Of a DNA stretch of 64,000 nucleotides, positions 3,004-64,000 are shown piece after piece. Within the stretch, counting starts at the first letter, position 1. The number at the start of each line of letters is the position of its first letter. Source of the DNA: Pseudomonadota bacterium (lineage in GTDB: Bacteria; Pseudomonadota; Gammaproteobacteria; JAADHS01); the NCBI GenBank assembly GCA_021821045.1, contig JAKACW010000006.1, positions 1 through 64,000 on the forward strand. Reading direction: 5' to 3'. The position numbers were made by a program, and so were the translations under genes. The notes under the pieces are model-generated. The model saw only the letters and a program-made list of their open reading frames with translations, ran no database searches and was not told where the DNA came from.

Positions 3004-3033
3004 GCACAAAGTTTCCCGCGGGAAACTTTGTGC
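3004..3033. repeat. 30-bp perfect palindrome GCACAAAGTTTCCCGCGGGAAACTTTGTGC (candidate parS or terminator)
   Basis: Read directly; inner 16 bp GTTTCCCGCGGGAAAC (3011-3026). Confidence 0.85.
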
Positions 3034-3993: not shown

Positions 3994-4570
3994 ACTCTTC
4001 GAAGAAACGCACGCCCTATCGGGCCGCTTTCGCGGTGCGTAACACGCGGGTGCCCACGACAAATGCCGTGTGCCGGGGAAAAGAACGGGAAAGATCACTA
4101 CGTTATTCTTTCCCTTCATTCTTTCCCTCCGACCCGCGCGGGAGCAGGGCGGGAACTCGGGCCCCACCCACGCGTTGCACGCCGCGTTCGCGGTGGGCGG
4201 GGCGCCTCGGCTTCTGGCCGCTTGACTCACTCTCGTTCCCCAAGCGACCGCCGAGGCCCTCGTTCCCCCGTCGCCCTTGCGTTCTTTTCTTTGTTGTTTA
4301 GCGATTCCATTGTCACGTCCTTTCATTGACTTAGCGTTTTGATTCGGGAGGGCGACGGGACCCGCTGCGGTGGGCGCACGCCGTGCACCGATTTATTTTT
4401 TGATGCGCTCTGGGTTCCACCGCCGCGCGGCATCCGTTGGATCGCGTCGCGCCATGCTTTCCCGGGAAAGACATTGAGTTTCCCACTCTTTCGCACTTTT
4501 GTACTTTTGCTGTTTTGCAAAGGGCGGGGAGGGTGGTAAGGTGATTTTCGCGTCACAGCAGGAGGGGAAG

Positions 4571-5188
4571 GTGTCAGCGCGAACGCGACGCGGGCGCCCG
4601 TCCACGATCACGGGACGGGCAGTGCGCCTGACGGCGACGGATCGCGCGGCATTAACGGATTTAGCGCGCGTGAATGTGATGACCGAGTCGGACTTGGCGT
4701 GGCATTACCGCGATCGTCAGGATCACGGTGCACGCGCCCTGGATCGGTTGGTGCGCGGCGGACAGTTAACACGCCTGCACTGGATACAACCGGGAGTCGG
4801 ACACACCGTGGTGTTTGCGTTCGCGGATAGCGCCGTGGCCGGCGCATGGGGCGGGACACTCGCGGCGACCGGACGTCGTTGCAGTGTGCAGCACGAAGTG
4901 TTGGTCTCGCGCCTGTACTGTTGGTTGGGTCGGCCGCCGGATTTTCGCTTACCGCGGGCTTATTCGACGGCGGATCTTTCGGCGTGCGGCGGGGTGCGCC
5001 CCGACGCGATGTATACCGGCGTCGATGGACAAACCGTGTTCGTCGAGGCCGATGGCGGGCAGTACACCCGGTCGCAGGTGTTGCACAAGTTGCGGCGCTG
5101 GGCGGGGAGGGTGCAAGTGTGGGGGCAACCGCAGCAGGCACATTGTGTGATTCCGACACGCCCGGGGATCACGGTGGTGCGTTTTTGA
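4571..5188 (+). CDS. Replic_Relax-like protein (winged helix + PD-(D/E)XK-like C-terminus)
   Basis: GTG start after AGGAGGGG; N-terminal LTATDRAALTDLARVNVMTESDLA, C-terminal RPDAMYTGVDGQTVFVEADGGQYTRSQVLHKLRRW. Confidence 0.5.
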   Translation: MSARTRRGRPSTITGRAVRLTATDRAALTDLARVNVMTESDLAWHYRDRQDHGARALDRLVRGGQLTRLHWIQPGVGHTVVFAFADSAVAGAWGGTLAATGRRCSVQHEVLVSRLYCWLGRPPDFRLPRAYSTADLSACGGVRPDAMYTGVDGQTVFVEADGGQYTRSQVLHKLRRWAGRVQVWGQPQQAHCVIPTRPGITVVRF

Positions 5189-5314
5189 TCGGCGGTGACT
5201 GCCGGTCACGCCGCGCCCGGAACGAGAACACTTAAATAACAGGGACACGCGTCGCCGGATCGCGGCGCGAAGGACGGTCAGCAGGGAACGCCGGCCAATC
5301 GAGAGGAAGGGAAA

Positions 5315-5965
5315 ATGGGATTTCTCGAAGAGCTGCAACGGCGCCGCCAGGCGCACGACACCACTGTGACTCCGCTGACGCCGGCGACCGAGCCGGTCGT
5401 CACGCCGGCAGCGGCCTCGATGCCGACCTCGACATCGGCTGCGCCGAAACCCTCGGCCGGACCGGCGCGTAACGTCACCAGTTTATTGGACGAGTTTCTG
5501 CGGTTGAGCGAACAACAACCCGGCAACCCCTTGGCCGAAGCGACGCTGGTGCGCACCTTGCGCGATACCACCGGCTGGTCGCAAACGCGCTTGGCCGATG
5601 CGTTGGGGCGCAGCGAAAGTTACGTGTCGAAAAAACTCAAACTCGTCAGTGCCCCGGATAACGTGCGCGCGCGGATCGCCAGCGGCGATCTGTCCGAAAA
5701 AGCGTTTATCGAAGGGCGGGTGCACGATCAAGGCGCGGTGGTCTCGCGCACGCGCCAGGCGCGGGTCGGCTTGACCTATGAGGCGGCGCTGGCACTGGCC
5801 CGCGTGTGTCAGCAGTTGGCTGCGCAACAGGGCTTGGCGCCCATTCACTTAGGCAAGCATCCCACCCGGCGCGAAGTGATGGCCATTCTCGAACACCGCA
5901 GCGAAGAGCTGGCCGAGGTGTACAAAAAGACACCGCATGCAACCGCTGCTGAGTCATCTCGATAA
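5315..5965 (+). CDS. ParB/KorB-type HTH protein lacking the ParB N-terminal nucleotide-binding domain
   Basis: LVRTLRDTTGWSQTRLADALGRSESYVSKKLKLVSAPDNVRARIASGDLSEKAFIEGR resembles the ParB/KorB HTH segment. Confidence 0.65.
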   Translation: MGFLEELQRRRQAHDTTVTPLTPATEPVVTPAAASMPTSTSAAPKPSAGPARNVTSLLDEFLRLSEQQPGNPLAEATLVRTLRDTTGWSQTRLADALGRSESYVSKKLKLVSAPDNVRARIASGDLSEKAFIEGRVHDQGAVVSRTRQARVGLTYEAALALARVCQQLAAQQGLAPIHLGKHPTRREVMAILEHRSEELAEVYKKTPHATAAESSR

Positions 5966-6593
5966 CACGGCGTGGACGGTGTTGCGCACCTTGGCCCGCT
6001 TGGAGTTCGCCACCATCGCGCAGGTCGTCGGTGCCTGCGGCACGGTGAACCCCACGACGGTGCGACGTCGGTTGCGCGGGCTGGCGTCGGCGGGGTTGGT
6101 TGCCGTCGAACGGGTCGTTCGTCCGGCTATCGTGTCGTTGACTCGGCGCGGTGCGCGGTTGCTCGAGGTGCCGCCGTTGCGGCTGCGCAGTTGGGCGGTG
6201 ATGCGCCGGTGTGTGCAGCGCAACGAAGCCGAACAAGTGTTGCGCCCAATCGTCGGGCCGTTTTGTGTGCAACCGCGTCGCACCGTCTGGCGCTGGGGCT
6301 TGTGCCCGGCGGTGGGCGAGTACGGCGTGGTGACCGAGGCGGGGCAGCGGGCGCTGTTGTTCGTCGATGGTGGCATGAGTCCGCCGGCCCGGGTGCAACA
6401 CGCGTGGACCCGGCCGCACCGCCCGCCGCAGCGATTTTGGTCGGGCCCGCTGGGGCAGCGGTGGTCGACGGTCGTCGAGCAGGGCTGGGTGGTGACCGGC
6501 GATGCGGGGCATGCCGCGCGACTGCGCGGCCGTCTCGCGGGACTGCCGCTGCAGGTGGTGGTTGTTCCGCCCTTATGGAACAACACCTTATGA
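5937..6593 (+). CDS. Winged-helix replic_Relax-like protein
   Basis: LDNTAWTVLRTLARLEFATIAQVVGACGTVNPTTVRRRLRGLASAGLVAVER, wHTH; overlaps neighbours as in an operon. Confidence 0.45.
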   Translation: MQPLLSHLDNTAWTVLRTLARLEFATIAQVVGACGTVNPTTVRRRLRGLASAGLVAVERVVRPAIVSLTRRGARLLEVPPLRLRSWAVMRRCVQRNEAEQVLRPIVGPFCVQPRRTVWRWGLCPAVGEYGVVTEAGQRALLFVDGGMSPPARVQHAWTRPHRPPQRFWSGPLGQRWSTVVEQGWVVTGDAGHAARLRGRLAGLPLQVVVVPPLWNNTL

Positions 6594-8167
6594 AAGGCGT
6601 GGCGGCGGTTTTCGGGATCGTGGTGGGGCTGGATGCGGTGGTGGTGCTGTGGTGGGTCACCCCGGCCGGCGGCGTGGCGCTACTCATTATATATAGCGCC
6701 GCGGCCGCGGGCGTTTTAATCCGTCGTTGGTCAATGTGTTTACACGCGCCGCGCGGGTGGTCGCTCGGTCGGGGCGTGGAGCTGAGCGATCCGGATCGGC
6801 CGCAACGGGTGCGTGACGCGATGGTCAGCGACGCGGTGCTCAAACTCGGCGTGCTCGCGGTGGGCAATCCCGGCGCGGGCAAAACCGAGAGTGTGGCGCT
6901 GGGGTTGTTGGACAGTTTCGCGAGTGCACGTCCGGAAGGCGGTTGGGCCTACTTCGAAGGCAAGGGCGATACCGACATCTACAAAAAAGCGGTGGCGATG
7001 GGCGCGCGCATCGATCACTTTTTTTCCACCGAGTGGCCGGGTTCGGACAGCGTGAATCTGATGGAAGGGGCGGGCGCCGATGTGGTCGATCGGCTCACGC
7101 GCATGTTGATCGGCAAAAGCACCGCCACCGATTATTACGCCGATCTGCAACGGGCGATGTTGCATCGCGTGGTGCCGGTGTTGTGCGCCTTGCCGGTGCC
7201 GGTGTGTTTGCGCGACTTGTATGTGGTGTTGACGGACGACGGCGCCGCGCACGAAACGTTGCGCCTGGCGCGCGAGGCCGGCGTCGATGCGACCGCGGTG
7301 GCGTTGTGGACGCAGACGCTGGCGCGTCCACGTGAGCAACGGGTCAGTGAACTGGCGGGGCTGCTCAATCGGTTATTCCTGTTCGTCAACGGCCCGCTCG
7401 CGCCGCGGCTCAATGCATACGCCCCGACGTTATGCGTGGCGCACGCCGTGGCGGCGGGACGGACGGTGTATTTTCATTTGCCGTTGACGGAGGTGGCGCG
7501 CGATGTGGCCGTCGCCCTGGTGGAAATGTTCGGCGTGCAGGCCCGGCACCGCCAGTTGAGCGAGACGGACGCGCCGCTGTATCCGCTGGTGTTCGATGAC
7601 TGGGGGCGGTTTTTTCACGATCACTTCGGCCCGTTCTCGGCGCGTTGCCGCTCGGCCAACATGCCGCTGATGTTTTGTTTTCAGTCGCGGGCGCAACTCG
7701 ATGCGGTCAGTCCCACCTTTGCCCAGGAACTCGACGACAACACCGCCACCAAGGTGATCCTGCGGGTGACCGGCGAGGCCACGGTGCAGTACGCGTTGCG
7801 GTTACTCGGTGAGAGCGAGCGGGCGGCGGTGGCGGTGAGTGATTACGGCGCGGGCGGCGCCACGCAATTGGCGATGCAACGGGAGCCGCGGTTGGTGGCG
7901 CAGCAGTTGCGCGAGCTGGCGCCCGGTGAAGCCTATGTGTCGACCTTGCTCGAAACCGAGCGTGGCCGTTGGCGCAATCCGTTATGGCGACTGCAACTCC
8001 CGTTGCCGCCGATGAGCGCGTGGCGTGACGTGCGGTTACCCGCGCAGACGCCGGCGGATCCCGGTGTCGGTTTGGGTCTGTGGTCACGCTATGTCGATCC
8101 GGAAACGGTGAAGGCCCTCAACGACACCTTGCTCGCGCAAGCGCGGGCCCATGAGGTGCGCGCATGA
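6575..8167 (+). CDS. VirD4/TraG-like type IV coupling protein
   Basis: Two N-terminal TM segments, Walker A VGNPGAGKTES, Walker B YPLVFDDWGRF; first gene of T4SS run. Confidence 0.75.
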   Translation: MEQHLMKGVAAVFGIVVGLDAVVVLWWVTPAGGVALLIIYSAAAAGVLIRRWSMCLHAPRGWSLGRGVELSDPDRPQRVRDAMVSDAVLKLGVLAVGNPGAGKTESVALGLLDSFASARPEGGWAYFEGKGDTDIYKKAVAMGARIDHFFSTEWPGSDSVNLMEGAGADVVDRLTRMLIGKSTATDYYADLQRAMLHRVVPVLCALPVPVCLRDLYVVLTDDGAAHETLRLAREAGVDATAVALWTQTLARPREQRVSELAGLLNRLFLFVNGPLAPRLNAYAPTLCVAHAVAAGRTVYFHLPLTEVARDVAVALVEMFGVQARHRQLSETDAPLYPLVFDDWGRFFHDHFGPFSARCRSANMPLMFCFQSRAQLDAVSPTFAQELDDNTATKVILRVTGEATVQYALRLLGESERAAVAVSDYGAGGATQLAMQREPRLVAQQLRELAPGEAYVSTLLETERGRWRNPLWRLQLPLPPMSAWRDVRLPAQTPADPGVGLGLWSRYVDPETVKALNDTLLAQARAHEVRA

Positions 8168-8538
8168 CGACGTGGTTACGGGTGTGGCCATTGTGTGTTG
8201 TGCCGGGCGTGGTGCTGATGTTGCTCGGCTGTTTGCCGCAGATCGCATGGGTCGACAAAAGTGTGGGCGGGGCGAGTGTGCGCGCCGCAACGGTCGAGGT
8301 CGCGTTGGTGTCGTGGTTGCCGTCGGCGCCGCGCGAGGAGTTTCAACGCTGGTATGCCGCCGCGCCGCCCGCAACCCACTATGCCGTGCATGCCTGGCTC
8401 GCTCTTAATCTGAACACGTTGCTGTTGCCGCTGACCTACGGACTGGCGCGGGCCTGCATTGCGAGCTCGGCGTGGTCGATGCGCACAGAGTGGGAACTCA
8501 AACGCGGCGCGTTGCGCCGTTCAACCAGGGAGCGGTAG
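8164..8538 (+). CDS. Small membrane protein in T4SS operon
   Basis: ATGA overlap with upstream T4CP; two hydrophobic segments. Confidence 0.55.
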   Translation: MTTWLRVWPLCVVPGVVLMLLGCLPQIAWVDKSVGGASVRAATVEVALVSWLPSAPREEFQRWYAAAPPATHYAVHAWLALNLNTLLLPLTYGLARACIASSAWSMRTEWELKRGALRRSTRER

Positions 8539-8541
8539 ACG

Positions 8542-8847
8542 ATGAAAGCAGGACGGGTGTGGGTGTTGCTGATGCTGTTGTGGGTGCCGGCGTGGAGTGG
8601 GGCGGCGGTGCAGTTGCCCAGTTACGCCACTGGCGCCGATGTCAAAACCGAAGCGCAAGCGGTGGGCCAGCGGGTCACCGAAACGGTGAGTCTGTTCGTC
8701 GGGATTCTCGGCATCATTGGCTTGCTCATCTCGGCGGGCTCGTTCGCGGTGGGCAACCAAAGTTTGGGACGCACGGCGGGGCTGGGGTCGGTGGGCGGTC
8801 TGACGCTGGCCGCGTTGGCCTTCGGCATCGCGCGCTTGTTTGCCTGA
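8542..8847 (+). CDS. VirB2/TrbC-like pilin candidate
   Basis: About 100 aa, signal peptide plus two TM segments, positioned before VirB3/VirB4-like genes. Confidence 0.5.
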   Translation: MKAGRVWVLLMLLWVPAWSGAAVQLPSYATGADVKTEAQAVGQRVTETVSLFVGILGIIGLLISAGSFAVGNQSLGRTAGLGSVGGLTLAALAFGIARLFA

Positions 8848-9125
8848 TGAGCGCGTTTAACGATCGCTTGCGGGTGAAGACGTTGCTCGGTTTGCCACTG
8901 GTGGCCGTCGCGGCGGGCGTGGCGGCGTTCGCCTTAACGGTGCTGATCTGGCTGTTGCCGTGGGGCGTGTTGAGCGTGGTCCTGCTGGTGGCCATCGCAG
9001 GGTGTGTCTTACTTGCCGCGGTCGCGTTGGCACTGGGTGAAGAGGGGCCGTTGTTGCCGGTTCGCATCGCGGACGCGCGTGAGCGACGGCGCCGCGCGCA
9101 AGCACGCAAAGGATGGGACACATGA
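8847..9125 (+). CDS. VirB3-like protein
   Basis: 93-codon ORF with paired TM segments immediately upstream of VirB4-like gene; ATGA overlaps both sides. Confidence 0.5.
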   Translation: MSAFNDRLRVKTLLGLPLVAVAAGVAAFALTVLIWLLPWGVLSVVLLVAIAGCVLLAAVALALGEEGPLLPVRIADARERRRRAQARKGWDT

Positions 9126-11491
9126 ACCCGTATGCCGAGGCGTTTACTTGGAGTCACCCCTTGGGCGAGCACGCGATCGCCCATCGCGACGGGGCGGTCT
9201 CGTGCGTAATCGGGTATCGCGGGTGGGATGTGAGTCTGGCCACCGATGCGCAACGCGCCGCGCTGTGGACGCCGCTTTACCAAGCGTTGCACAGCTTACC
9301 GCCGGACGTGGTGGCGGAGTGGCATTTGTGGCGCGAACACGACACCCGTTGGGTCGACGAGTACCTCAGTGTCGGGTCGCGTATGCAACGCGGCGCGGAG
9401 GTGGCGCAACCGTTTCGGGAGGCGATGGCGGACCACCTCGCCCAGTACACCCTCATCAACGAGACGGCGTTGGTGTTAACCCATGTGCCGCGCAAGCGGC
9501 CGTTTTGGGCGCGCCGCGCTTTGGTGGAGCAAGCGCGTGCGGCCGACACCGTGTGTGACACCGCGCACGCGTTGTTGCGTTTTTTACCGGAGGCGCGGCT
9601 GCTTTCGGTCGATGACTTCGTGCAGCGCATCGTCCAGTCGGCGAGCCGGCGGCGGTTTTTGCGCGGTGCCCGCACCACCGTCGATCCGCGCTTCTTGCTC
9701 AACGAACAACTGCTCGATGCGCAACCGAGCGACTCACACAACGGATTGGCGTTCGAGGGTGAGCACACCCGCGCGTTGCTGGTTTACCTCTACCCGAAGT
9801 GCGAACCGGGCTGGACGGAACGCTTGGCCCGCGCGCCGTGTCCCTTGCATCTATCGCACATCGTGCAAGCGGCCGACACCCGTCGCGCCTTGCGCGAGGC
9901 CGAGCGTGACGGGACCTTGAGTGAAGGGCTCTTGAGTCGTCACGATGCGGCGCGGTCGGAAAAACGGCTGGCCGACATGACCGGCTTCCAACAGTTCGTG
10001 GCCGAACACGGGCTGGGGATTTTTCGTAACGCGTTTATTGTGCACCTGCACGGCGATCCCGAGACGCTGGCGCGGGGCGAAGCGTATGTCACCGATGCGG
10101 TGGAGCAGGCGGGCGGCCAGGTGCGCGGCGATGCCTATCTGCAACGGCCGTATTTTCGGGCCGGTCAACCGGGGCAGGGACATCGCTGTCCGTTGTTTCG
10201 GCCGGATCACACCTGGCAGGTCGGCGACTTGTTGCCCGTGCATGTGTTTTCGCGCGGCGAGGCGGCGCCCGAGAGTGTGCGCTTGGCCGAGACCGGCCAG
10301 CCGGTGGGGCTCAATTACACCAACAAGAGCGTGGCGCACAGTGTAACGGTGGCGGTGACGCGTGGCGGGAAGGATGTGGAGAAGATCGCCACCATCGTGG
10401 AGACCTATCCGTTCGGTATCGATTGGTATTGTTTGGAGATCGGCGGCAGCTACCGCTGGGTGGTGGAAGCATTCGGTGGCACGTACTCCGAAGTCGATCC
10501 GCGGCACACCGCGGTCAATCCGCTCCCGCTGTATGCGGTCGCGCGCGCCGAGGGTTTGCCGCTCGATGCCGAGATCGCCGGCGCGACGGTGAACGCCTTG
10601 GCGTTCTTGTTGACCGATGGGATGACCACCTTGAGTGTGCATCAAACCGCGGCGGCACAAATGGCGCTGCAAATGCTCTATTCCGTCCCCGGCGCGACGG
10701 AGGCGCCGACGCTCGCCGATTATCTGGGCGAGTTGGAACAGGGTACCTATTGGGAGAACGACGAACAATCGCACGCCGCCGCGGCCATGGCGGCCAATCT
10801 GCATTCGTTTCTCGACACCACCGAGGGCCGTTTGTTTGCCGGGCCGGGGTCACTGCAATTGTCGGACGGGATCACCGGCGTGGATCTGAAAGCAGTCGAT
10901 CGGGTGAGTCCCAAACTGTTGACGTTTTACCTGGTGTTCGTCGCCTTGCGCTTTCAGCAACAGGCGTTTGCGCGGCGCCAGCCGGCGCGTGTGCTACTGA
11001 ATGAGTTGCACAAGTTCGTGGGCGTGGCGCCGGACGTGGTGCGCCGCTTGTGCGCGGAGTTGGCGCGCATGGGCCGCAAAGAAGCGGCGGCGCTCGATCT
11101 GGTGACCCAAGGCATTGCCGAGATCGATGCCTTGGAGAGCGAAGTGCTCAACAGCATGGCGATTCGCACCTTGCTGTATCGCAACGCCGAATGGGAGACG
11201 ATCGCGGCCCGCATGAAACTGCCCGAGGGCGCGCTCGCGGCGTGGAAGGCCTTCGACTATCCCCTCGAAGCGGCGTATCGGCCGGGCCTGCGTGGCGTGG
11301 GGGATGCGTATTCGTTATTGCACCTGACGTTCCCGTCGCTGCTGCTGGATTTTGCCAGCACGGATCCGGCGGATCTTTCACTCAAGGCGCAGGTCGGGGC
11401 GCTCACGCCCGATCCGTTCGAACGCATTGCCTTGCTGCGCCAAGCGCGCGCCCACGGCCCGGCGCCCGACCGGCGGGAGCGTGCCGCATGA
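9122..11491 (+). CDS. VirB4-like protein (non-canonical Walker motifs)
   Basis: DWYCLEIGGSYRWVVEAFGGTYSEVDPRHTAVNPLPLY and RVLLNELHKF...LARMGRKEAAALDLVTQ match VirB4 layout. Confidence 0.75.
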   Translation: MNPYAEAFTWSHPLGEHAIAHRDGAVSCVIGYRGWDVSLATDAQRAALWTPLYQALHSLPPDVVAEWHLWREHDTRWVDEYLSVGSRMQRGAEVAQPFREAMADHLAQYTLINETALVLTHVPRKRPFWARRALVEQARAADTVCDTAHALLRFLPEARLLSVDDFVQRIVQSASRRRFLRGARTTVDPRFLLNEQLLDAQPSDSHNGLAFEGEHTRALLVYLYPKCEPGWTERLARAPCPLHLSHIVQAADTRRALREAERDGTLSEGLLSRHDAARSEKRLADMTGFQQFVAEHGLGIFRNAFIVHLHGDPETLARGEAYVTDAVEQAGGQVRGDAYLQRPYFRAGQPGQGHRCPLFRPDHTWQVGDLLPVHVFSRGEAAPESVRLAETGQPVGLNYTNKSVAHSVTVAVTRGGKDVEKIATIVETYPFGIDWYCLEIGGSYRWVVEAFGGTYSEVDPRHTAVNPLPLYAVARAEGLPLDAEIAGATVNALAFLLTDGMTTLSVHQTAAAQMALQMLYSVPGATEAPTLADYLGELEQGTYWENDEQSHAAAAMAANLHSFLDTTEGRLFAGPGSLQLSDGITGVDLKAVDRVSPKLLTFYLVFVALRFQQQAFARRQPARVLLNELHKFVGVAPDVVRRLCAELARMGRKEAAALDLVTQGIAEIDALESEVLNSMAIRTLLYRNAEWETIAARMKLPEGALAAWKAFDYPLEAAYRPGLRGVGDAYSLLHLTFPSLLLDFASTDPADLSLKAQVGALTPDPFERIALLRQARAHGPAPDRRERAA

Positions 11492-12159
11492 TGCGCGGCG
11501 CGCAGGCAATGCTTCTCGCACTTACCCTCATCGGGGCGATGCCGGCGGCGCAGGCGTTTATCGATGTCAGTGGTCCGGCGCAGTTAGCGCAGATGGGCAA
11601 GATCTATTACACCTTGATCGAACAGTTGCGTACACTGCAAGCGCAGAGTACCACGATGCGTCGGCTGCTCGATGACGCGCGGGCGGCGCGTCAGACCTAT
11701 GATCGCGTGGTGAACCTGCGCCTGGAATCGGTCATTGACATGGTCAAGGGGGATCTGGCCGGCACCACCTTGCTTGATGAACTCGACGGCGCGTCGCGCG
11801 ATGAGCGCTTGCGTTTGATCGAGCTCGAATTGTCGCGGCGGATTCGCGCCGACACGGGCGCGGACCGTGCCCGACTGCAACGGGCGAAAGGGCAGATCAA
11901 ACAACTCCAACGACTTCAGGCCGTGCAAGCGGCGGCCGGGGCCAACCTGCAAGCGGCGAACACCGATCTCGATGAGCGTCGCAGTGCCCAACTGACCGCC
12001 CAGTCGACCGCCATGATTGCCGCCTTGGCCAGCGTCGAACAACAACGTCGGGCCAGCGAGGCGTTGCAGGCCCACGAGTCCCGCGCGCAGGAAACGTCGT
12101 TCATGCGTGAGAGTGTGCAGGTCTACGGCGCGTTGGCCGAGCGGGAGGCGACGCGCTGA
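11488..12159 (+). CDS. VirB5/TrbJ-like secreted coiled-coil protein
   Basis: Signal peptide; DVSGPAQLAQMGKIYYTLIEQLRTLQAQ; position in operon. Confidence 0.55.
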   Translation: MMRGAQAMLLALTLIGAMPAAQAFIDVSGPAQLAQMGKIYYTLIEQLRTLQAQSTTMRRLLDDARAARQTYDRVVNLRLESVIDMVKGDLAGTTLLDELDGASRDERLRLIELELSRRIRADTGADRARLQRAKGQIKQLQRLQAVQAAAGANLQAANTDLDERRSAQLTAQSTAMIAALASVEQQRRASEALQAHESRAQETSFMRESVQVYGALAEREATR

Positions 12160-13316
12160 TGGACAGTGGACTCACTTCGCTGGTCACGGCGTTCTCGCCC
12201 GCGCCGATTTACGAAGCGAGCGCGAGCATGGCCCAGTATGTGGCGAGCCTCATTACCCCGATTATGTTGGTGCTGGCGATTTACGTGCGCATCGGTGAGA
12301 CGCAATTGGCGAACTTGAGCGGCAACAGCCGGTGGGCGTTGGCGGTCAAGGATCTGTTGCTGTGGGGCAGTGTGCTTGCACTGTACTTTGCGATCGCCAA
12401 CGAAGTGGGGGCGTTGTTCAATGCGTTTTACGAAGGGCTGGCACGGCAAGGGTCCACCGCCCAGATCTTCGCGGCGTTCGACACCCTGGTGGCGCGGGTG
12501 GAGGCGCAACAGGCGACCCAAGAGAGCGGCGTGTGGTCGGCCATGACGGACATGGGTCAGAGTCTGGTCAACGCGGTGGGGTTTGGCGTGTATTACCTGT
12601 CGTGGATCCTGGTGGTGTTCATCGGCGTGTTCATGCACTTGGCCCACGCCATCGGCTACGGGATCGCGTTTATCCTGGGCTTGCTGGTGATTCCCACGGC
12701 CATGACGCAAAGCGTGCGCTTGTTGCGCGGGTGGGCGGTGTTATTGGGGGCGATTCTACTCTGGCCGCTGATCGAATCCATCGCGTTAGGCCTTTATGGC
12801 AAGGTGTTTTCGCAGCTGGCCGCAACCTGGGTGCACGAACCGGCGGAGTCGATGCCGATGTTGCGGGTGTACATCCTCTACACCGTGCTCAACCTGATTA
12901 TCGCGGTGATCGCCGTGGGCAGCCCGTTGCTAGCCGGTGCGATTGCAGGTAACGGTAACGCGTTGGCGCAATGGGCGATGCCGTTCGTGGTCGGTGCAGT
13001 CGGCGCCAGTGGCGCGTACCGGCGCGCTGTCACGCGGGCGGTGCCCGCGGCAGGCCGTCACGGGTGGACTCTCACCCGCGCAAGCGGCCAAGCCTTGACA
13101 CGCGTTGCGCACACCGTGCGGACATCGTCATCGCGCGGCCCCGCGCCGCAATCAGGAAGTGCGCGGCAAGCGGCGGGCTCGACGGCCTCGCCCACCGCCT
13201 CCACGCCGACGACACCACGCAATGAAGATGCAGCGCGCCGCGCCCGTCAGACGCGTCGCGGCGTCATGATTCAAAAACAACGACAGAAACACAAACCGCA
13301 GGATAAAACGCCATGA
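12159..13316 (+). CDS. VirB6/TrbL-like polytopic membrane protein
   Basis: Multiple TM helices with charged C-terminal tail; operon position. Confidence 0.6.
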   Translation: MDSGLTSLVTAFSPAPIYEASASMAQYVASLITPIMLVLAIYVRIGETQLANLSGNSRWALAVKDLLLWGSVLALYFAIANEVGALFNAFYEGLARQGSTAQIFAAFDTLVARVEAQQATQESGVWSAMTDMGQSLVNAVGFGVYYLSWILVVFIGVFMHLAHAIGYGIAFILGLLVIPTAMTQSVRLLRGWAVLLGAILLWPLIESIALGLYGKVFSQLAATWVHEPAESMPMLRVYILYTVLNLIIAVIAVGSPLLAGAIAGNGNALAQWAMPFVVGAVGASGAYRRAVTRAVPAAGRHGWTLTRASGQALTRVAHTVRTSSSRGPAPQSGSARQAAGSTASPTASTPTTPRNEDAARRARQTRRGVMIQKQRQKHKPQDKTP

Positions 13317-13966
13317 ACGAGATCGTGACCGAACCGGAAGCGGCGCCGTTGAGCGCCAAACAGTTACTGCAACGCCACGGCCCCGCCGGGGGGTTGATCC
13401 TGCGGCTGCAACGCTACGCGTTGTTGGGATGGGGCTGTTTTTTTGCGTTGGCGATTGTGTTTGTCGGGTATGCCTTGGTGGCGCAGCTGCGACCCGTGCC
13501 GGTGATCGCGGTGAGCGAAGACGGGCGGATGCTCGGCACCGTCGACTATGTCGATGGGACCCATCGCACGGAAGGCGAGTTGCTCGCCGCGGCGCGCTAC
13601 TTCACGCAATACTACTTGAGCATGAACAGTGCCACGGTGTTCGAGGACATGGCGCTGGCCATGAACATGATGGAAACGTCGCTGCGCGAGCAGAAACTGG
13701 CGGAAGTGAAAGCGAATGACTATCTGGCGCGGATCGCCGCGGCGGAAACGCGGGCGCAGGTGCGCTTCGGCGAGGGCGCGGAACAACCGCAACTGATCGA
13801 GCAGCGCGAGGAGGCCGCGCGGATCCGCTTGCGCGGACAGCTGTTGCTCGACGGCCCCGGGGGACGGGTGGAAAGCCCGTTCGATGTCACCGTGACGCTA
13901 CGACCCGTCGCGCGCACACCGCTAGCCACCCACGGCGTGGCCATACTCAACGTGGAGGACAACTGA
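13313..13966 (+). CDS. VirB8/TraE-like inner-membrane T4SS protein
   Basis: Single N-terminal TM plus periplasmic domain; operon position. Confidence 0.45.
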   Translation: MNEIVTEPEAAPLSAKQLLQRHGPAGGLILRLQRYALLGWGCFFALAIVFVGYALVAQLRPVPVIAVSEDGRMLGTVDYVDGTHRTEGELLAAARYFTQYYLSMNSATVFEDMALAMNMMETSLREQKLAEVKANDYLARIAAAETRAQVRFGEGAEQPQLIEQREEAARIRLRGQLLLDGPGGRVESPFDVTVTLRPVARTPLATHGVAILNVEDN

Positions 13967-13967
13967 T

Positions 13968-14873
13968 ATGCAACGGCTCATCAGTGTGATGCTCGGGGCG
14001 CTGATATGCGCCAACACCTGGGCCCTCGAGGCGCCGACGCCACAACGCAAGCGCGTGACGTTGGAACCGTTTACCGCCTTGAGCGTGGCGATCGTGCCGG
14101 ATCTGGGGACGCGGTTTCGGTTTCCGTTTGTGCTCGACACGGCGGAAAATCCCATTCCCTTTACGCTCACCGTGACCAACGATGCGGTGTTTCATGTCGA
14201 GCGGCCAGCGGGTCGGGACTTTTTCATCGTCACAGTGCCGCCGCCCAAAGACGGCGGCGCGATGCCGGGCTATCTGGGCACGCTGTTCGTGAATCTGGCC
14301 GGCTATCACCTCACCGTGGCGCTGTCGACCACCGGGCGCTTGGATCAGCACTATACCGACATCGACTTCGAACTGGGTGAAGAAAAAAAAGCGGATTGGC
14401 TGCACGATGCGCTCGCGCGCGAGCGCGCCATGCTGCAAGCGCAGTTCGACGCCAAACAAGCCGCGTTCGAGATCGAAGTGGAACGGGCGGCGATGGTGCG
14501 GTTGGCGCAAGCGTTGCGCGATGCGCCGAGCAGGAAAGCCATCAAGGAAGAGCGACTGGTGCGCCTCGACACCGGTGTGGATCTGACGGTGTACGTCGAG
14601 CGGGAACTGGATCTCGGGGACTACACCGCCTGGTTGTTCGAACTCGAACAACGGGGCGCACCCGAGGGGGTGCGGGTGGAGCACGTGCAGCTGCAGGCAG
14701 GAGAATCATCACTGCGCCGGATGATTCCGGCGACGGTGGAGTTGCCGAAAACCGTGAGCGGGACGCAGCCGGTTCGGGGTGTGGTCGTGGTGCCGCGTGA
14801 CGCGGTCCCGCCGGGGGAATATCTGACCTTGCAGGTGGCGACGGATAGCGGCAATGCGGAGGTGACCTGGTGA
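13968..14873 (+). CDS. VirB9/TraK-like secreted T4SS protein
   Basis: Signal peptide, beta-rich, precedes VirB10-like gene with ATGA overlap. Confidence 0.4.
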   Translation: MQRLISVMLGALICANTWALEAPTPQRKRVTLEPFTALSVAIVPDLGTRFRFPFVLDTAENPIPFTLTVTNDAVFHVERPAGRDFFIVTVPPPKDGGAMPGYLGTLFVNLAGYHLTVALSTTGRLDQHYTDIDFELGEEKKADWLHDALARERAMLQAQFDAKQAAFEIEVERAAMVRLAQALRDAPSRKAIKEERLVRLDTGVDLTVYVERELDLGDYTAWLFELEQRGAPEGVRVEHVQLQAGESSLRRMIPATVELPKTVSGTQPVRGVVVVPRDAVPPGEYLTLQVATDSGNAEVTW

Positions 14874-15802
14874 AACGTAAAGCAGTGCTCGCGGTGCTCT
14901 GCGCGTTGCCGGTGATTGCATTCGCCGTGACCGGCGATGATTTGCGCGATCTGAGTAGCGAGGCGGAACAGCAGCAACGGCAGCGAGCGGCGCGGCTCAG
15001 TGCCGATGACCTGGGCGGGCGGTTTCGGCTATTGGAGAAGACGCAGAAAGTGGAGAAGGGTCAAACGGTGACGGCAACCGAGACGTCACCGTCGATGTCC
15101 GCAACGCAACGACGCACCGCAAGCACACGCGATGCTGAACCCATACCGCAGGAATCGCACTCGGTCTCCATGCGCACTTCCGCGTCGACACCGCAGACGG
15201 GGAGCAGGGCAGGGGAGTATGTGCCGCCGCCGCGCGAGGCGGTCGAAGCGAACGTGCATACCGATGCCTTGACGATTGATCCGACCCGTTTCGGAATTAG
15301 CATGGGCAGCTGGCTGCAAGCCGAACTCACCCGACCCACCACGAGCGCGGAGCCGGGCTTGTTGGAACTGACCGTGACCCATGATCAACCCGGACGCTAC
15401 CGTACCTTACCGAAGGGGACATTGCTGTTCGCCGAGAAAACGGTCAACGGGGCCACGCAGCGATTGGAGTTGCGCATCGTCAAAGGGGTGACCCCGGACG
15501 GCAACGAGTTCACGCTCGACGCCCAACTGTTCGACGGACAGCGTCACTCGGGTCTGGCCGGCGTGGTGCTGCACCGTCGCGAAGACCGGCTTCGCTACGC
15601 GGCGCAAGATGGGGTGTTCGGCGCGACGCGTGCATGGTTACGCACCGTGGTGAGCGACGATCCCATCGGCGCCGCAACCCGCACCGCCGCCGAAGCACTA
15701 GTCGAGGAGGAGCAGCAAAGTGGTGAACGTTATCGGGCGCCCACGGTGACGCTGGCCGTGCCGCCGCAGGCGGTGCAGATTCGGGTGAATGCGGCGTTGT
15801 GA
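14870..15802 (+). CDS. VirB10/TrbI-like T4SS protein
   Basis: YRTLPKGTLLFAEKTVNGATQRLELRIVKGVTPDGNEFTLDAQLFDGQRHSGLAGVV resembles the VirB10 beta-barrel core; N-terminal signal-like segment. Confidence 0.55.
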   Translation: MKRKAVLAVLCALPVIAFAVTGDDLRDLSSEAEQQQRQRAARLSADDLGGRFRLLEKTQKVEKGQTVTATETSPSMSATQRRTASTRDAEPIPQESHSVSMRTSASTPQTGSRAGEYVPPPREAVEANVHTDALTIDPTRFGISMGSWLQAELTRPTTSAEPGLLELTVTHDQPGRYRTLPKGTLLFAEKTVNGATQRLELRIVKGVTPDGNEFTLDAQLFDGQRHSGLAGVVLHRREDRLRYAAQDGVFGATRAWLRTVVSDDPIGAATRTAAEALVEEEQQSGERYRAPTVTLAVPPQAVQIRVNAAL

Positions 15803-15869: not shown

Positions 15870-15955
15870 GGTATTTATAGTACCGAATAAAAGAGAAAAA
15901 TAAACTGGCTATCGATAAAGTTTAAAAAGTCGTCTATATTGGTACCATGAGTACC
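15870..15955. promoter_or_regulatory. Twin 15-bp operators upstream of and overlapping the abiEi start
   Basis: GGTATTTATAGTACC (15870-15884) and GGTACCATGAGTACC (15941-15955). Confidence 0.65.
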
Positions 15956-16717
15956 GTAAAAGAGTCAAAATTAAACAGTCTCCTTCGCACTCAGCCCATG
16001 GGCATCGTGCTCACTTCGGCGTGGCTAGCAGAGCAGGGGTATAGCCTTGATTTGCAGAAACGGTACAAAAAAAGCCAGTGGTTCGACTCTATTGGTAGAG
16101 GTGCCTTGGTTCGCCATGGCGATCAGGTGGACTATTTGGGCGGTGTCTTCGCGCTTCAATCCCAACTAGGACTGTCGGTGCACCCCGCGGCGAAAACCGC
16201 GTTGTCGTTGCAAGGGAAGGCCCACTACGTGGAGTTGTCTACCAAGAAAGCGCAGCTGTTTGGTGGTCAGGATGAAACGTTGCCGCTTTGGTTTAAAAAG
16301 CGGGACTGGAGCGTACGTATAGATTGTAAGCTGACTTCCTTTATACCCCCTGAGCTTGGATTGGTTGAGATCGAGCATAAGAGCTTCACGGTGAAGGTTT
16401 CCACTCCCGCCCGTGCCGTGATGGAATGCCTCTATCTGGCACCTAAGTCTCAGCCGCTCTTGGAAGTATTTGAGCTGATGCAGGGCTTGAATAATTTGCG
16501 GCCGGGCTCGGTACAAATGCTTTTGGAAGCCTGTACGTCCATTAAAGTGAAGCGCTTGTTTTTGTATATGGCAGACAAGGCGGGTCATGAGTGGCTTCGC
16601 TATACCAAGCTGGACAAGGTTGATTTAGGTTCGGGAAAACGTGCCATCGTCCGCGATGGGGTGTACGTTTCGAAGTACCAGATAACGGTTCCCGAAGAAT
16701 TGGAGAACGCGGTGTGA
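15947..16717 (+). CDS. abiEi: AbiEi-family antitoxin (type IV TA)
   Basis: N-terminal wHTH-like region; overlaps (ATG/GTG) an AbiEii-like nucleotidyltransferase. Confidence 0.8.
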   Translation: MSTVKESKLNSLLRTQPMGIVLTSAWLAEQGYSLDLQKRYKKSQWFDSIGRGALVRHGDQVDYLGGVFALQSQLGLSVHPAAKTALSLQGKAHYVELSTKKAQLFGGQDETLPLWFKKRDWSVRIDCKLTSFIPPELGLVEIEHKSFTVKVSTPARAVMECLYLAPKSQPLLEVFELMQGLNNLRPGSVQMLLEACTSIKVKRLFLYMADKAGHEWLRYTKLDKVDLGSGKRAIVRDGVYVSKYQITVPEELENAV

Positions 16718-17613
16718 TTGAAGCCTACAAGAGGCAAGTGCGGCTTCTTCTCGATGTGTTGCCGGAGATCGCAAAGGAGAAGTGCTTTGCGATGCATGGC
16801 GGCACGGCTATCAATCTTTTCGTGCGTGATATGCCGAGGCTATCGGTGGATATCGATCTGACTTATGTTGAAATCGCAGATCGTAAAGAGACTCTGGACA
16901 CAATCAATGCCGCACTTGCTCGCATAAAAGAACGTGTGGAACGTCTACGTTCCTCGATACGAATAGAGCAAAAAGAAAGGGTGTGCAAACTTCAGCTTGA
17001 TGAAAACGGTATCATCATCAAGATTGAAGTCAACATGGTGGGACGCGGTTTAATTGGTGAAGCCATCACGGTGCAGCTTTGCGAAACCGCGCAAGACGAG
17101 TTTGATACCTTTTGCGTATCGTCAATTGTGCCTATGGCACAGCTTTACGGCGGTAAACTATGTGCGGCGCTGGACAGGCAACATCCTCGGGATCTGTTTG
17201 ATGTGAGAATTTTGCTTGATAACGAAGGCTTTAGTAACGAGATCAAGCGAGGCTTTATGTTTGGGTTGATCAGCAGCAATCGGCCAATTCACGAAATGCT
17301 CGATCCCAATCTACTCGATCAGCGGTCGGCATTCGAAAATCAATTCGAAGGCATGAGCGCAATTGAGTTTAGTTACGACGATTATGAGGCAACAAGACTT
17401 CAGCTTATTCAAACCATAAAATCCGGTCTCGATAAAGACGATCGCACTTTCTTGCTCAGCTTTAATCGTTTGGAATCCGATTGGACAATTTACGATTTTC
17501 AGAAGTTTCCATCGGTGAACTGGAAGCTCCAAAATCTGGAAAGGTTCAAACAGAAAAATCCAGAGACCTACTGGAAGCAATTAGCAAGGCTGGAAACTAT
17601 TCTAGCGGCGTGA
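16714..17613 (+). CDS. abiEii: AbiEii nucleotidyltransferase-like toxin
   Basis: AMHGGTAINLFVRDMPRLSVDIDLTYVEIADR: GG-T...D.D nucleotidyltransferase motif; MAQLYGGKLCAALDRQHPRDLFDVRILL. Confidence 0.9.
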   Translation: MIEAYKRQVRLLLDVLPEIAKEKCFAMHGGTAINLFVRDMPRLSVDIDLTYVEIADRKETLDTINAALARIKERVERLRSSIRIEQKERVCKLQLDENGIIIKIEVNMVGRGLIGEAITVQLCETAQDEFDTFCVSSIVPMAQLYGGKLCAALDRQHPRDLFDVRILLDNEGFSNEIKRGFMFGLISSNRPIHEMLDPNLLDQRSAFENQFEGMSAIEFSYDDYEATRLQLIQTIKSGLDKDDRTFLLSFNRLESDWTIYDFQKFPSVNWKLQNLERFKQKNPETYWKQLARLETILAA

Positions 17614-33806: not shown

Positions 33807-34121
33807 GACGTGCATTCTGAGCTAACTCAAATCACCGGCACCATGGTGCCGGTGATTTTCCAACGGGAAGGCTACCGCAAGTCGCCCATTTTCTTTGTCA
33901 TGGACGACACCAAAGGCGGCCCCGTCTGAATAAAAACAGGCCGTCTCGCGCGGGAGCCATGGGAGTTGGTGATCGACTACTCCTTGGCGACTTTGTATGA
34001 CTTGCGAATCGGTGATCCTTTCATCGTGGCGGACTTCGAGATTCGTATTGCCGGGATCGCCGAAAACACGGCCGCACTGTTTACCGCGTTTGTCTTTATA
34101 AAATACGACGATATGATCTAG
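33807..34121 (+). pseudogene. Fragment of FtsX-like ABC transporter permease with in-frame TGA
   Basis: DVHSELTQITGTMVPVIFQREGYRKSPIFFVMDDTKGGPV*IKTGRLAREPWELVIDYSLATLYDLRIGDPFIVADFEIRIAGIAENTAALFTAFVFIKYDDMI*; TGA at 33927-33929. Confidence 0.55.
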
Positions 34122-57274: not shown

Positions 57275-57410
57275 GGCGGCTCCAGGTCCGTGTCAAGGCG
57301 TTTGCGGGGGTGTATTGGGTGAGCTCAGGAACAATTGTGAGGCTTCATCTTCATTGAAGAAAGGGTCGTTCAAAGAGGGTAGGAGAAGCGCTGTCCCAAA
57401 AACTACAACT

Positions 57411-57511
57411 GGTCTCCATGCGTTTTTCCGCGTCGACACCACTGACAAGGAGCAGAGCAGGGGAGTATGTGCCGCCCCGCAGGCGGCGAAGATTCGGGTG
57501 AATGCGGCGTT
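57411..57511 (+). pseudogene. Relic of the virB10-like gene (14870..15802) with internal deletion
   Basis: 57411-57476 matches 15162-15227 (about 58/66 by eye); 57479-57511 matches about 15765-15797 including GATTCGGGTGAATGCGGCGTT. Confidence 0.85.
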
Positions 57512-57729: not shown

Positions 57730-58029
57730 ATGACTATACACAAGATTTTTGCTGAAGACACCGTTTCCGTCACTGAGATGCGTAAATCGCCGGCCAGTTT
57801 TTTTACCGATCGTCCGGTAGCGGTTTTGAGCAACAATCAGGCGGTAGGCTACCTGGTTGGCGCAGAGTTATTTGAGTCCATGATGGAGTTGATTCGTCAG
57901 GTTCAACCTCAAGAGACTTTTGCGGCTAGGTTTCAACCAAACGTCAAGCAGCTCAAAGAAGCGGCGGCGGCTTCTGCAAAATTTCTGGCGACGGCGAAAG
58001 ACGAAGACCTAGCGGACTTCGTTGAGTGA
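57730..58029 (+). CDS. yafN: Phd/YefM-family antitoxin (YafN-like)
   Basis: DTVSVTEMRKSPASFFTDRPVAVLSNNQAVGYLVGAELFESMMELI. Confidence 0.85.
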   Translation: MTIHKIFAEDTVSVTEMRKSPASFFTDRPVAVLSNNQAVGYLVGAELFESMMELIRQVQPQETFAARFQPNVKQLKEAAAASAKFLATAKDEDLADFVE

Positions 58030-58433
58030 CGGCGCAAATTTTTCATCACAAATCGCTGGAGCATATATTCACGCAACTCGGTCTTGACCTTCCGGCGCTT
58101 AAGGATGATTTCAGGCGGTACAAGGAAGCAGGTACCCTTCCAAGTAATTTTGGTCGTGATGCCGAGTATAACCATCCTAATGGCTTACCGATAATACGCC
58201 AGGAAAAAGTATCTCATATCCACCTTGAAGAGTCTGATAACCCTTGGAATGCGAGGACCGTGCAGTTTAATAAGACGAGCGATACGCATCTTGTCTACTG
58301 TCGCGGGTTTTACGACGAAAATTGCTACCTACTCATGGCCCTCTTATCACCCGATGCGCATATCAAAGCACGGGACAACAGCATCATGTTTAATCTTGGG
58401 AAAATGGCGGAAAAGTTCCGCTGCAAGTTCTAG
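58026..58433 (+). CDS. yafO: YafO-family toxin
   Basis: FGRDAEYNHPNGL...TSDTHLVYCRGFYDENCYLLMALLSPDAHIKARDNSIMFNLGKMAEKFR; overlaps antitoxin stop. Confidence 0.85.
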   Translation: MTAQIFHHKSLEHIFTQLGLDLPALKDDFRRYKEAGTLPSNFGRDAEYNHPNGLPIIRQEKVSHIHLEESDNPWNARTVQFNKTSDTHLVYCRGFYDENCYLLMALLSPDAHIKARDNSIMFNLGKMAEKFRCKF

Positions 58434-59497: not shown

Positions 59498-60235
59498 TCA
59501 GTACATCAATGCCACCGACAGAATAGCGGCGGTTTCGGTGAGTTCGACCAAAGCTCCGGCGGTATCACCAGTGGTGCCTCCGATACGTCTTAGGATGAGT
59601 TTGCGCAGGACATAGAATGCGCCGCCGACGACGGTCAGTAGCCACCACGCCTTCGGCCCGTAGAAAGCAATAGCTGCAAACAGCGTAGTCGCTGCCGAGA
59701 GTGTACACGCGCTTCTCGGTAGGTTGCTGGCGAGCAAGCTGCCCAGTCCTTGCGACCGCACATACGGCGTGGTGAGAAATAGCAAGACCAGCGCCGTCCG
59801 TCCGAGGACGGGAACTAGGACGATGAGTCCCCACGCGTCGTTCGCCAGAAGCTGCGCCAGCGCCGCGAACTTGATCAGCAGTATGACGACCAGGGTGACG
59901 ATCGCCATGGGGCCGCAACGCGGGTCTTTCATAATGGCAAGCGTTTTGTCGCGATCGCCGAGACCGCCGACCCAGGCGTCCGCGCTGTCGGCAAGGCCAT
60001 CGAGATGCAGCGCACCGGTCACCGCTACCCAGACTGCGAGCAGCACGGCGGCGCCGAGCAGAGGAGGCGCATCGCCAAGCATCCACGCGACTGTCGCAAG
60101 CAGCGCGCCGATGAACAGACCGACCAGCGGATAGTAGAGCAAGGATCGCCCGCTTGCCTCGGCGTCCGGTACCGAATTGATTCGGACGGGCAGCACGGTG
60201 AGAAATTGAAGGGCGATCAGTAAGGGTCGAAACAT
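59498..60235 (-). CDS. cobS: Adenosylcobinamide-GDP ribazoletransferase
   Basis: ALQFLTVLPVRI; GALHLDGLADSADAWVGGLGDRDKTLAIMKDPRCGPMAIVTLVV. Confidence 0.93.
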   Translation of the reverse strand: MFRPLLIALQFLTVLPVRINSVPDAEASGRSLLYYPLVGLFIGALLATVAWMLGDAPPLLGAAVLLAVWVAVTGALHLDGLADSADAWVGGLGDRDKTLAIMKDPRCGPMAIVTLVVILLIKFAALAQLLANDAWGLIVLVPVLGRTALVLLFLTTPYVRSQGLGSLLASNLPRSACTLSAATTLFAAIAFYGPKAWWLLTVVGGAFYVLRKLILRRIGGTTGDTAGALVELTETAAILSVALMY

Positions 60236-60242
60236 GAAGGTG

Positions 60243-60833
60243 TCACGTCCGCGCGCCATTTTCGCAAGCAAGGCGAGCCAGGCCGTCACCGTCAATGCGC
60301 AAGCCATGCAGTTGCCCATGTGAAACCTCGAATTCGTACCATCGCGATACGGGAACTTCGAAGACATGACAGAGCAGCACGCGAATCACGCCGCCATGCG
60401 TGACGATCAAGACACGCCGATCGGTCTGTGCGAAGAGAATGTCGTTCCATGCTTCGAGCACGCGCGTCTGAAAACACGTGAGCGGCTCACCGCCGGGTGG
60501 GGGATGTGCATCCGGATCTCGCCAGAAGCTCTCCAGTGCCTGCGGGTCATCGGCCATGAGGTCGGCCGCGCTTTTGCCTTCCCACTGGCCGAAGTGCATC
60601 TCCTTTAAGCGCTTGTCAAAGGTCAGTGGCAAAGATTGTCGTAGGGCAAAGGCGTTGGCGAATTCTGCACAGCGGACTAAGGGGGAGCTGACGACCCGGT
60701 CCCAGCGGTCACTCTCGGCGAGAGCGGTGTGCATTTGCGCGAGACCCGCTGGGGTCAGTGGATCGTCCGTGTGGCCGCGAAATTGGCTACCGCCCTTGAC
60801 TTCACCGTGACGCAGAAGACCAACCCACGTCAC
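60243..60833 (-). CDS. cobC: Alpha-ribazole phosphatase / histidine phosphatase family
   Basis: [45 protein letters not shown]. Confidence 0.88.
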
Positions 60834-61909
60834 GCGGTTTTCTCCGATACGCCCGCCTCGGCGAAGGTGGACATTTCGTTGTGCAGCGCGCAGGCCATGC
60901 GTAACAGTGGCACGGCCGCGGCAGCACCGCTGCCTTCGCCCAGACGCATACCCAAATCGAGTAGTGGCTTTGCATCGAGGGCTTTGAGCACCGCTTGATG
61001 ACCCGGTTCGGCGGAGGCGTGCGAGAACAGCATCCATAGCCGGGCGCCGGGGCACAGCCGCGCGGCGGCGAGCGCTGCCACCGAACTGATGTAGCCATCG
61101 ACTAGCATCGGTAGGCCGATGTGTGCGCATGCGATATAGGCGCCGGTCAAGGCGGCAATTTCGAAACCGCTGAGACGACGCAGCGCCTCCAGGGGTGTGC
61201 CGTGATGCGCGCTGTGACGGGCCAGCGCTCGGCGGATCACCGCGGTTTTTCGTGCTACCCCTTGGGCGTCTAGACCCGTGCCTGGGCCGGCGAGGCGTTC
61301 CGGCGGCGCATTGAGCAACGCGCAGGCCAGGGCTGAAGCAGCGGTGGTGTTGCCGATGCCCATCTCGCCGCCGATGAACAGCTGTGCGCCATTTAGATGT
61401 GCACGCTCGGCGGCATGACGTCCGGCGGCGAGGGCGCGGGCGAACTGGTGTTCGGTCATGGCCGGTTCGCGGGTAAAATTGGCTGTGCCGGGACCGAGCA
61501 GGGAGTGCTTTACACCCTCGAGCGGACCGGTATCGAAGGCCGTGCCCAAATTTATTACCTCAAGCTCAGCCCCGAGGGCGCGCGCTGCCACGCAGATCGC
61601 CGCGCCGCCGCGCGCGAAGTTTTTCACCATCTCCGCCGTCACCGCCTGGGGGAAGGCCGACACACCTTCGGCAGCGACGCCGTGGTCGCCCGCGAATACC
61701 GCGATGTGCACCTGCGCGATGTTTGGCTGGGCAGTGCCTTGCAGTGCGGCGAGGCTGATCGCCAGCTCCTCCAATCGGCCGAGTGCGCCCGGCGGTTTGG
61801 TGAGTACGGTCTGGCGTGTAATGGCGGCGGCGCGTGCGCCGGCATCGGGGGTGGCGGCCGGTGTGCGGAGCCAGTCGATGGTTGCGGCCTCATTCGTCGG
61901 TGCATTCAC
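60830..61909 (-). CDS. cobT: Nicotinate-nucleotide-dimethylbenzimidazole phosphoribosyltransferase
   Basis: [51 protein letters not shown]. Confidence 0.94.
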
Positions 61910-62427
61910 ACGGGTTCTCCTTTCAAGATATGAGGCAGGCCGGCGATGGTCAGGATCACGCGATCGCAAATCCGTGCAAGATCCTGATGTAGCCGGCCCG
62001 CTTCGTCGCAATAGCGGCGACTGAGTTCGCCGAGGGGCATAACGCCCATGTTGGTTTCGTTGCTGACCAGGAGGATGCGGCCCGGCAGCGTCGCCAGCAC
62101 ATTGAGTAGCGCCGCCCGCTCTCGCTCCAGTAGACTCTCGCCTTCGTCGGTCAGCAGGTTGGTAAGCCATAAGGTCAGGCAATCGACGAGCACCCAGCGA
62201 TCTGCTGTGACGTGGGCATGCAGTGCTGCGGCGAGTTCGCGCGGTTCTTCCACGACGAACCAGTCCTTCGGTCGACGCGCGCGATGCGCCTCGATGCGCG
62301 TGCGCATCTCATCGTCCCCGGCGGTGGCGGTGGCGATATAGGTGACGGGCAGACCGCTGTCGGTGGCGATGCGTTCGGCCAGCCGGCTCTTCCCGGAACG
62401 GACCCCACCGAGGATCAAGGTTTTCAC
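61906..62427 (-). CDS. cobU: Adenosylcobinamide kinase/guanylyltransferase
   Basis: [57 protein letters not shown]. Confidence 0.94.
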
Positions 62428-63905
62428 GGTAACGCCTCCGCGGTTTGATTATTCAATAGCTGCGTGAGTGCGCCGGTGTCGAGATGCGCTTCAACTGCGT
62501 CGGCGAGCCGTTCGATGGCGGCCTCGCGTAGCGCCGTATAGTCGATCGTTTGTGCATCGGTCAATCCGCCCCACGCGAGCAACGTGCTGCAGGCGCGTGG
62601 AGATTCAAATAGGCCATGCACGTAAGTGCCGAGGATTTGGTTGTCATTGCTGATGGCGCCGTCGGGGCCATGGTCGAGATGCGCCGTCGGCTGGTTGAGC
62701 GCGGGGCCGGTGGTGACGCCGGCGTGGATTTCGTAGCCGCTTATGGGCGCATCGTTGATCGTTAATGTGCCGTGAACATTGCGCAGTTTTTTGTCGGGTT
62801 CGAGCGTTGTTCGCAGATCGAGCAGTCCGAAACCGTCACTGGTTCCGGCTTCGCCTTCGAGGCCGTGGGGGTCGTGAATGTGCTGTCCGAGCATTTGGAA
62901 ACCGCCGCAGATGCCGATGAGTTTGCCGCCATAACGCAGGTGCCGATGAATTGCGCTTTCCCAGCCGTGTCCGCGCAGCCAGGCGAGATCGGCGCGCACG
63001 CTCTTGGAGCCGGGCAGGATGATCAGATCGGTTGGCGGAATGGTTTCGCCGGGGCCGATGAAACGCAGATCCACCTGCGGATGCAGGCGCAGCGGATCGA
63101 AATCGGTGTGATTGCTGATGCGTGGCGTGGCGGGAACAACCACACGCAGGCGTCGTGTCGTTGTTTCATTTACTGTGAGTTCGCGGGGCAGCGCGTCCTC
63201 TGCTTCAAGGTGCAATCCATGCAGAAAGGGCAATACACCCAACACTATCTTTCCGCTGTACTGCTCCAGCCAGTCGAGTCCCGGTTGGAGCAGGGCAATG
63301 TCACCCCGGAAGCGGTTGATGACGAAGCCGGCTACGCGGGCACGTTCACTTTCGCTCAGGAGTTCGAGTGTTCCGACGAGATGGGCGAAGACACCGCCGC
63401 GGTCGATGTCGGCGACGAGAATCACGGGGCAGTCGATCGCTTCGGCGAAGCCCATGTTGGCGATGTCGCCTTCGCGCAGATTGATCTCGGCCGGCGAGCC
63501 GGCGCCCTCGACGATCACCGCGTCGAATTGCGCGGCGAGGCGGTGAAAAGATTCCAGCACCGCCGTACGCGCGATGGACTTGTAATCGTGATAGTCACGC
63601 GCGCTCATGTTGGCGACGGCGCGGCCGTGGATGATGACTTGCGCGCCGGTATCGGTATTGGGCTTGAGCAACACCGGGTTCATGTCGGTGTGCGGTTCCA
63701 GACCGCAGGCTTGTGCCTGCACCGCCTGGGCGCGGCCGATCTCGCCGCCGTCGGCCGTGACCGCGCTGTTCAGCGCCATGTTCTGTGGCTTGAACGGCGC
63801 GACGCGCACGTTTTGGCGTGCCAACCAACGGCACAAGGCCGTGACCAACAGACTCTTGCCGGCGTCCGAAGTCGTGCCTTGAATCATCAGCGTGGCGGCG
63901 TTCAT
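62424..63905 (-). CDS. cobQ: Cobyric acid synthase
   Basis: [52 protein letters not shown]. Confidence 0.95.
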
Positions 63906-64000
63906 GAGACAGTCTTTGCTGGATTCGTCGCGGCCTGATTTATCAGTGCCGTTTCCAGCCGTCCCCAATCCGTTTCGGTTCCGGGCAAACCAACGCGCAG
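63902..64000 (-). CDS. cobD: C-terminal fragment of CobD-like aminotransferase (threonine-phosphate decarboxylase)
   Basis: Minus-strand [32 protein letters not shown], overlapping cobQ start. Confidence 0.6.

Follow-up and report, generated by a model that had tools for sequence, protein, structure and literature searches.

Gene content of the window and its plasmid context

The window (64,000 nucleotides, the first part of contig JAKACW010000006.1) contains a conjugation block that ends in an intact virB10 gene, a long accessory cargo behind it and, within that cargo, a virB10 fragment of 101 bases at 57411–57511 (+), 42 kb away from the intact gene (Table 1). At 99,948 bp, the contig is one of 140 in a draft assembly. 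Its bases 7–132 equal bases 99823–99948, and this overlap of the two ends, 126 bp in length, makes it likely that the molecule is a circular, TrfA-type plasmid of ~99.8 kb; the six bases at its very start look like adapter. Backbone genes encode TrfA (PF07042, E=4e-45), ParA, a KorB/ParB-type protein, a Replic_Relax-like protein and a TraG/D coupling protein. A reading of the right flank as chromosomal was rejected in view of the end overlap and of the homologues of transfer genes A, B and the Ig-domain gene at 72–76 kb.

The intact virB10 is placed after VirB8/VirB9-like genes in a type IV secretion system (T4SS) operon. Its product matches PF03743 with E=2.5e-7 and 31.2 bits, under the cut-off of 35. 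The AlphaFold model has a pLDDT of 61 overall and of 87–95 in its core blocks, and its top Foldseek matches, including the significant ones in the PDB, are proteins of the VirB10 type from the core complexes of T4SSs, the best being TrwE/VirB10 (E=2.6e-8). The predicted fold, together with the sub-threshold domain match and the operon position, identifies the product as a VirB10 homologue. The other VirB names in the block were assigned from the order of the genes and their homology to those of relatives.

Table 1. Features at and around the two virB10 copies; window and contig share one numbering
Feature	Position	Strand	Basis or remark
Conjugation block upstream of virB10	4499–14873	+	Replic_Relax-like, KorB/ParB, TraG/D coupling protein, VirB4-, B6-, B8- and B9-like genes
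Intact virB10, 310 aa	14870–15802	+	PF03743, predicted fold match to VirB10/TrwE, relatives; last T4SS gene of left block
Left direct repeat copy, GTGCCGCCGC	15221–15230	+	inside intact virB10
Right direct repeat copy, GTGCCGCCGC	15758–15767	+	inside intact virB10
AbiEi/AbiEii toxin–antitoxin pair	15947–17613	+	first cargo genes after virB10
Cargo block 1	17658–57274		Cu/Czc/Mer-type metal genes and neighbours
Relic part 1	57411–57476	+	copy of virB10 codons ~98–120 (variable linker)
Relic deletion junction, GTGCCGCCCCGCAGGCGG	57469–57488	+	comparison with virB10
Relic part 2	57477–57511	+	copy of final virB10 codons (~15764–15798); stop codon missing
Phd/YefM-like antitoxin and YafO toxin	57730–58433	+	first genes past relic
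Cobalamin genes at the start of cargo block 2	59498–64000	-	runs on to contig 71104
Cobalamin riboswitch RF00174	contig 71161–71389	-	between cob cluster and gene A (contig 72022)
Gene A homologue	contig 72022–72396		homology to relatives
Gene B homologue	contig 72629–73192		homology to relatives
Ig-domain protein homologue	contig 73200–76157		homology to relatives

Within the 56-kb cargo, the relic has the AbiE/metal block on its left and the YafNO/cobalamin block on its right, and a virB10 3' end precedes each block (15802 and 57511). No integrase or transposase was found among the cargo ORFs scanned, of which small ORFs were covered in part. Within block 1, a BNR-repeat protein plus cytochrome-like segment is present in two diverged copies (41821–42523/55227–55932 and 43545–43856/56148–56458), one copy adjoining each efflux cluster. 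The cobalamin cluster is also accompanied by BtuF-like and TonB-receptor genes; a second cobT-like gene, 76% identical, is located on contig C130 of the genome, and a tRNA-Sec called by ARAGORN at 62461–62532 (+) within the cobyrinate synthase gene is likely a false positive. The plasmid also carries a second, different AbiE module (contig 96953–98930), two perfect 30-bp palindromic stretches (3004–3033 and 33829–33858) and DISARM-like defence genes at contig 78030–89876 (-), listed with L003 and L018, which comprise DrmC-, DrmB- and DrmA-like genes, a type II methyltransferase and, placed between the latter and DrmA, an unmatched protein of 927 aa.

The relic is a truncated and internally deleted copy of the virB10 3' part

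Self-BLASTN of the contig aligns 57411–57491 with 15163–15248 (84.9% identity, E=3.6e-17) and 57469–57511 with 15758–15798 (90.7%, E=6e-8), both in direct orientation relative to the intact gene. Without gaps, 57411–57476 differs from 15163–15228 at 8 of 66 positions. The joint score of 59 is about twice the null maximum of 28.5, which comes from ~3000 segments of 120 nt drawn at random from the contig. These results bear out the initial annotation, which had proposed a match of 57411–57476 to virB10 with 8 mismatches in 66, joined to the extreme 3' end of the gene, and had named chance similarity as one of the risks; only the start of the match moves by one base, from 15162 to 15163.

Both edges of the relic are sharp. 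On the left, 20-nt blocks upstream of 57411 agree at 2–8 of 20 positions, which is background; an upstream extension suggested by a weak tblastn tail to 57349–57358 was dropped, since nucleotide identity there is at background as well. On the right, homology stops at 57511, the final matching bases falling within codon 310 at virB10's own end, and the sequence 3' of the relic is unlike that 3' of the intact gene. The stop codon is gone (TTG-TGA of the intact gene reads TTA-TTG), and with the 5' end and ~535 bp absent and the frame changed by 1 nt, the coding capacity is destroyed. What remains is confined to the linker, which the model predicts with low confidence, and to the last strand, so the relic cannot encode a working part.

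The divergence of part 1 from the intact gene is 12%, which means that the event is old or that the donor had already diverged. Six of its eight substitutions are G>A/C>T if the intact copy is taken as ancestor (P=0.003 under uniform change), and half are outside third codon positions; the nearest VirB10 outgroup is ~39% identical, with an unalignable linker. Taken together, the 101 bp are best explained as the remains of a second, dead copy of the virB10 3' part that has lost its 5' end and an internal stretch.

The endpoints of the internal deletion coincide with a direct repeat in the intact gene. The two copies of GTGCCGCCGC are 537 bp apart, in the same frame, and represent the sole direct repeat of at least 10 bp in the 933-bp gene; by comparison, random endpoint pairs share 10 bp in 9e-5 of trials. 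The initial annotation had ascribed a loss of roughly 540 bp to recombination at a short direct repeat. The repeat is real and sits at both endpoints, whereas the loss comes to ~535–537 bp and the junction, GTGCCGCCCCGCAGGCGG, departs from the exact recombinant GTGCCGCCGCAGGCGG by 1–2 bases. The junction fits slippage, with pairing one unit over in a GCC run, plus the loss of one G.

Nothing points to a functional element, and Rfam gave no regulatory RNA match in the window. No DNA-level relative of the relic was found in virus contigs, in 72,556 plasmids or in the genomes scanned across the class, the order and the family. A 27/29-base match in genome L043 (E=3.5e-4 for one genome, 369 searched) was judged to be chance because the 3 kb read around it contains no T4SS gene.

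The cargo splits a conserved transfer operon

Our comparison with related T4SS operons, namely those of the Ca. Tenderia plasmid CP013100 and of MAG contigs L019/L031, L020/L029, L021, L028 and L032, reveals that virB10 is followed at once by gene A and/or gene B, with a gap of -3 to ~88 bp in the five cases measured, and that an Ig-domain protein comes after A/B where the contig reaches that far. Genes A, B and the Ig-domain gene represent a conserved, unnamed tail of the operon in these relatives. In this contig the gap from virB10 to gene A is 56,220 bp. Since the relatives have next to no gap at this place, the comparison indicates that 56 kb of cargo entered directly behind virB10 and split the operon. 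The relic also warns against treating the region as a chromosomal island flanked by a T4SS at one end. The relatives with an uninterrupted tail are distant (VirB4 only ~52% identical), and no close relative of the plasmid was present in the collections searched.

Origin of the relic

We favour an insertion of cargo by recombination within virB10, either co-integration or Campbell-type integration, followed by deletion and decay, and give this reading a probability of roughly 55%. A circle, either a related plasmid or an excised piece, would have borne virB10 sequence beside cargo block 1 and crossed over into the resident virB10 by homologous recombination. The product would have been a complete virB10 on the left, cargo block 1 and a redundant partial virB10 with the native 3' end, with resident DNA (YafNO, the cob genes, then gene A) downstream of the redundant copy. 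That copy would then have lost ~535 bp between the short direct repeats, as well as one base and the stop codon, and gathered point mutations. From a single crossover within virB10 one expects a complete gene, an insert, a truncated gene and resident downstream DNA, as seen here: the copies are in direct orientation, the left one complete and the right one 5'-truncated and ending at the native 3' end. Against this account, the ~100 bp that are left are too few for the donor or the order of events to be read from them, and a search of the contig for further T4SS or backbone gene fragments beside the relic found none. Plasmids with virB10 and cargo block 1 alone, or virB10 and cargo block 2 alone, were absent from the genome and plasmid searches, and the contig comes from a draft assembly.

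A donor-free history, possible but with clearly lower odds, is that the end of virB10 was duplicated within one plasmid, in tandem or as a segment, with cargo block 1 inserted later and the second copy decaying. The shared orientation agrees with it, as do the restriction of the duplicated sequence to virB10 and substitutions that look like those of a decaying copy of this gene. It requires two independent steps, however, with cargo block 1 entering exactly between the copies, and the sequence past the relic 3' end is unlike that past the intact gene, although later insertions could explain this. The short length and sharp ends of the relic, its position exactly on the cargo junction and its make-up, in which two distant parts of virB10 meet at a short repeat, would also suit filler DNA, copied from virB10 into a break by template switching or end joining as blocks 1 and 2 were joined, the microhomology join being part of the same event. 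We regard this as unlikely, because the right end of the relic is the native gene end, a chance outcome for filler, and the 10-bp repeat indicates that a longer copy underwent a deletion between repeats. If an element with its own integrase targeted the virB10 3' end and duplicated its attachment site there, that end would stand ahead of both cargo blocks, but the scanned cargo ORFs contain no such enzyme and the duplicated DNA includes an internal stretch ~540 bp from the gene end, beyond an end site; we consider this highly improbable.

Insertion by recombination within virB10 also agrees with part of what had been proposed from the outset. The suggestion of a duplication or co-integration is supported by the direct orientation and by the complete left and truncated right copies, whereas that of a second, decayed conjugative element found no support, as no other T4SS or backbone relic was found on the contig and no other VirB4 or VirB10, nor a second T4SS, in the draft genome (140 contigs). 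The metal island had further been described as bracketed by virB10 sequence: copies do lie on both of its sides, but this is only part of the picture. The cargo measures 56 kb rather than 42 kb and has the relic in its interior; on the right it extends to gene A at 72.0 kb.

The relic is a true but ordinary recombination scar, and its value is that of a marker of plasmid construction. It divides the metal-resistance genes from the B12 genes, helps to put the steps by which this mosaic plasmid was assembled in order, and shows that cargo broke the transfer operon right behind virB10. A broader and rather doubtful extension is that the virB10 3' end may be a recurrent point of cargo capture in this T4SS plasmid family, with relic ends marking block boundaries; successive cargo blocks would then each arrive behind the virB10 end, like growth rings.

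Comparison with known systems

The intact protein resembles the VirB10/TrbI (TrwE) family in the predicted fold of residues ~140–235 and of the C-terminus, with PF03743 below threshold; by comparison, the non-functional relic retains linker codons and the last ~12 codons only. The internal loss resembles deletion between short direct repeats by slipped misalignment or single-strand annealing in that ~535 bp disappeared with both ends at the only 10-bp repeat, and differs in its slightly inexact junction. RecA-independent mechanisms of such deletions are discussed in PMC4627823.

The T4SS of Candidatus Tenderia electrophaga (CP013100) and of several gammaproteobacterial MAGs shares with this plasmid the order from a Replic_Relax-like gene to VirB10, then (A)-B-Ig, and a VirB4 that is 52% identical. 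The difference is in the tail, which is contiguous there and interrupted here by the 56-kb insertion with its virB10 relic. IncP-1-type plasmids likewise have TrfA, a KorB-type HTH protein and ParA, and carry metal and toxin–antitoxin cargo at discrete points of the backbone; their insertion hot spots for accessory DNA are described in PMC7728920. The present T4SS differs in that no IncP-1 Trb/Tra family was matched beyond weak TrbI and TraG/D hits, and its cargo lies between virB10 and the next transfer gene.
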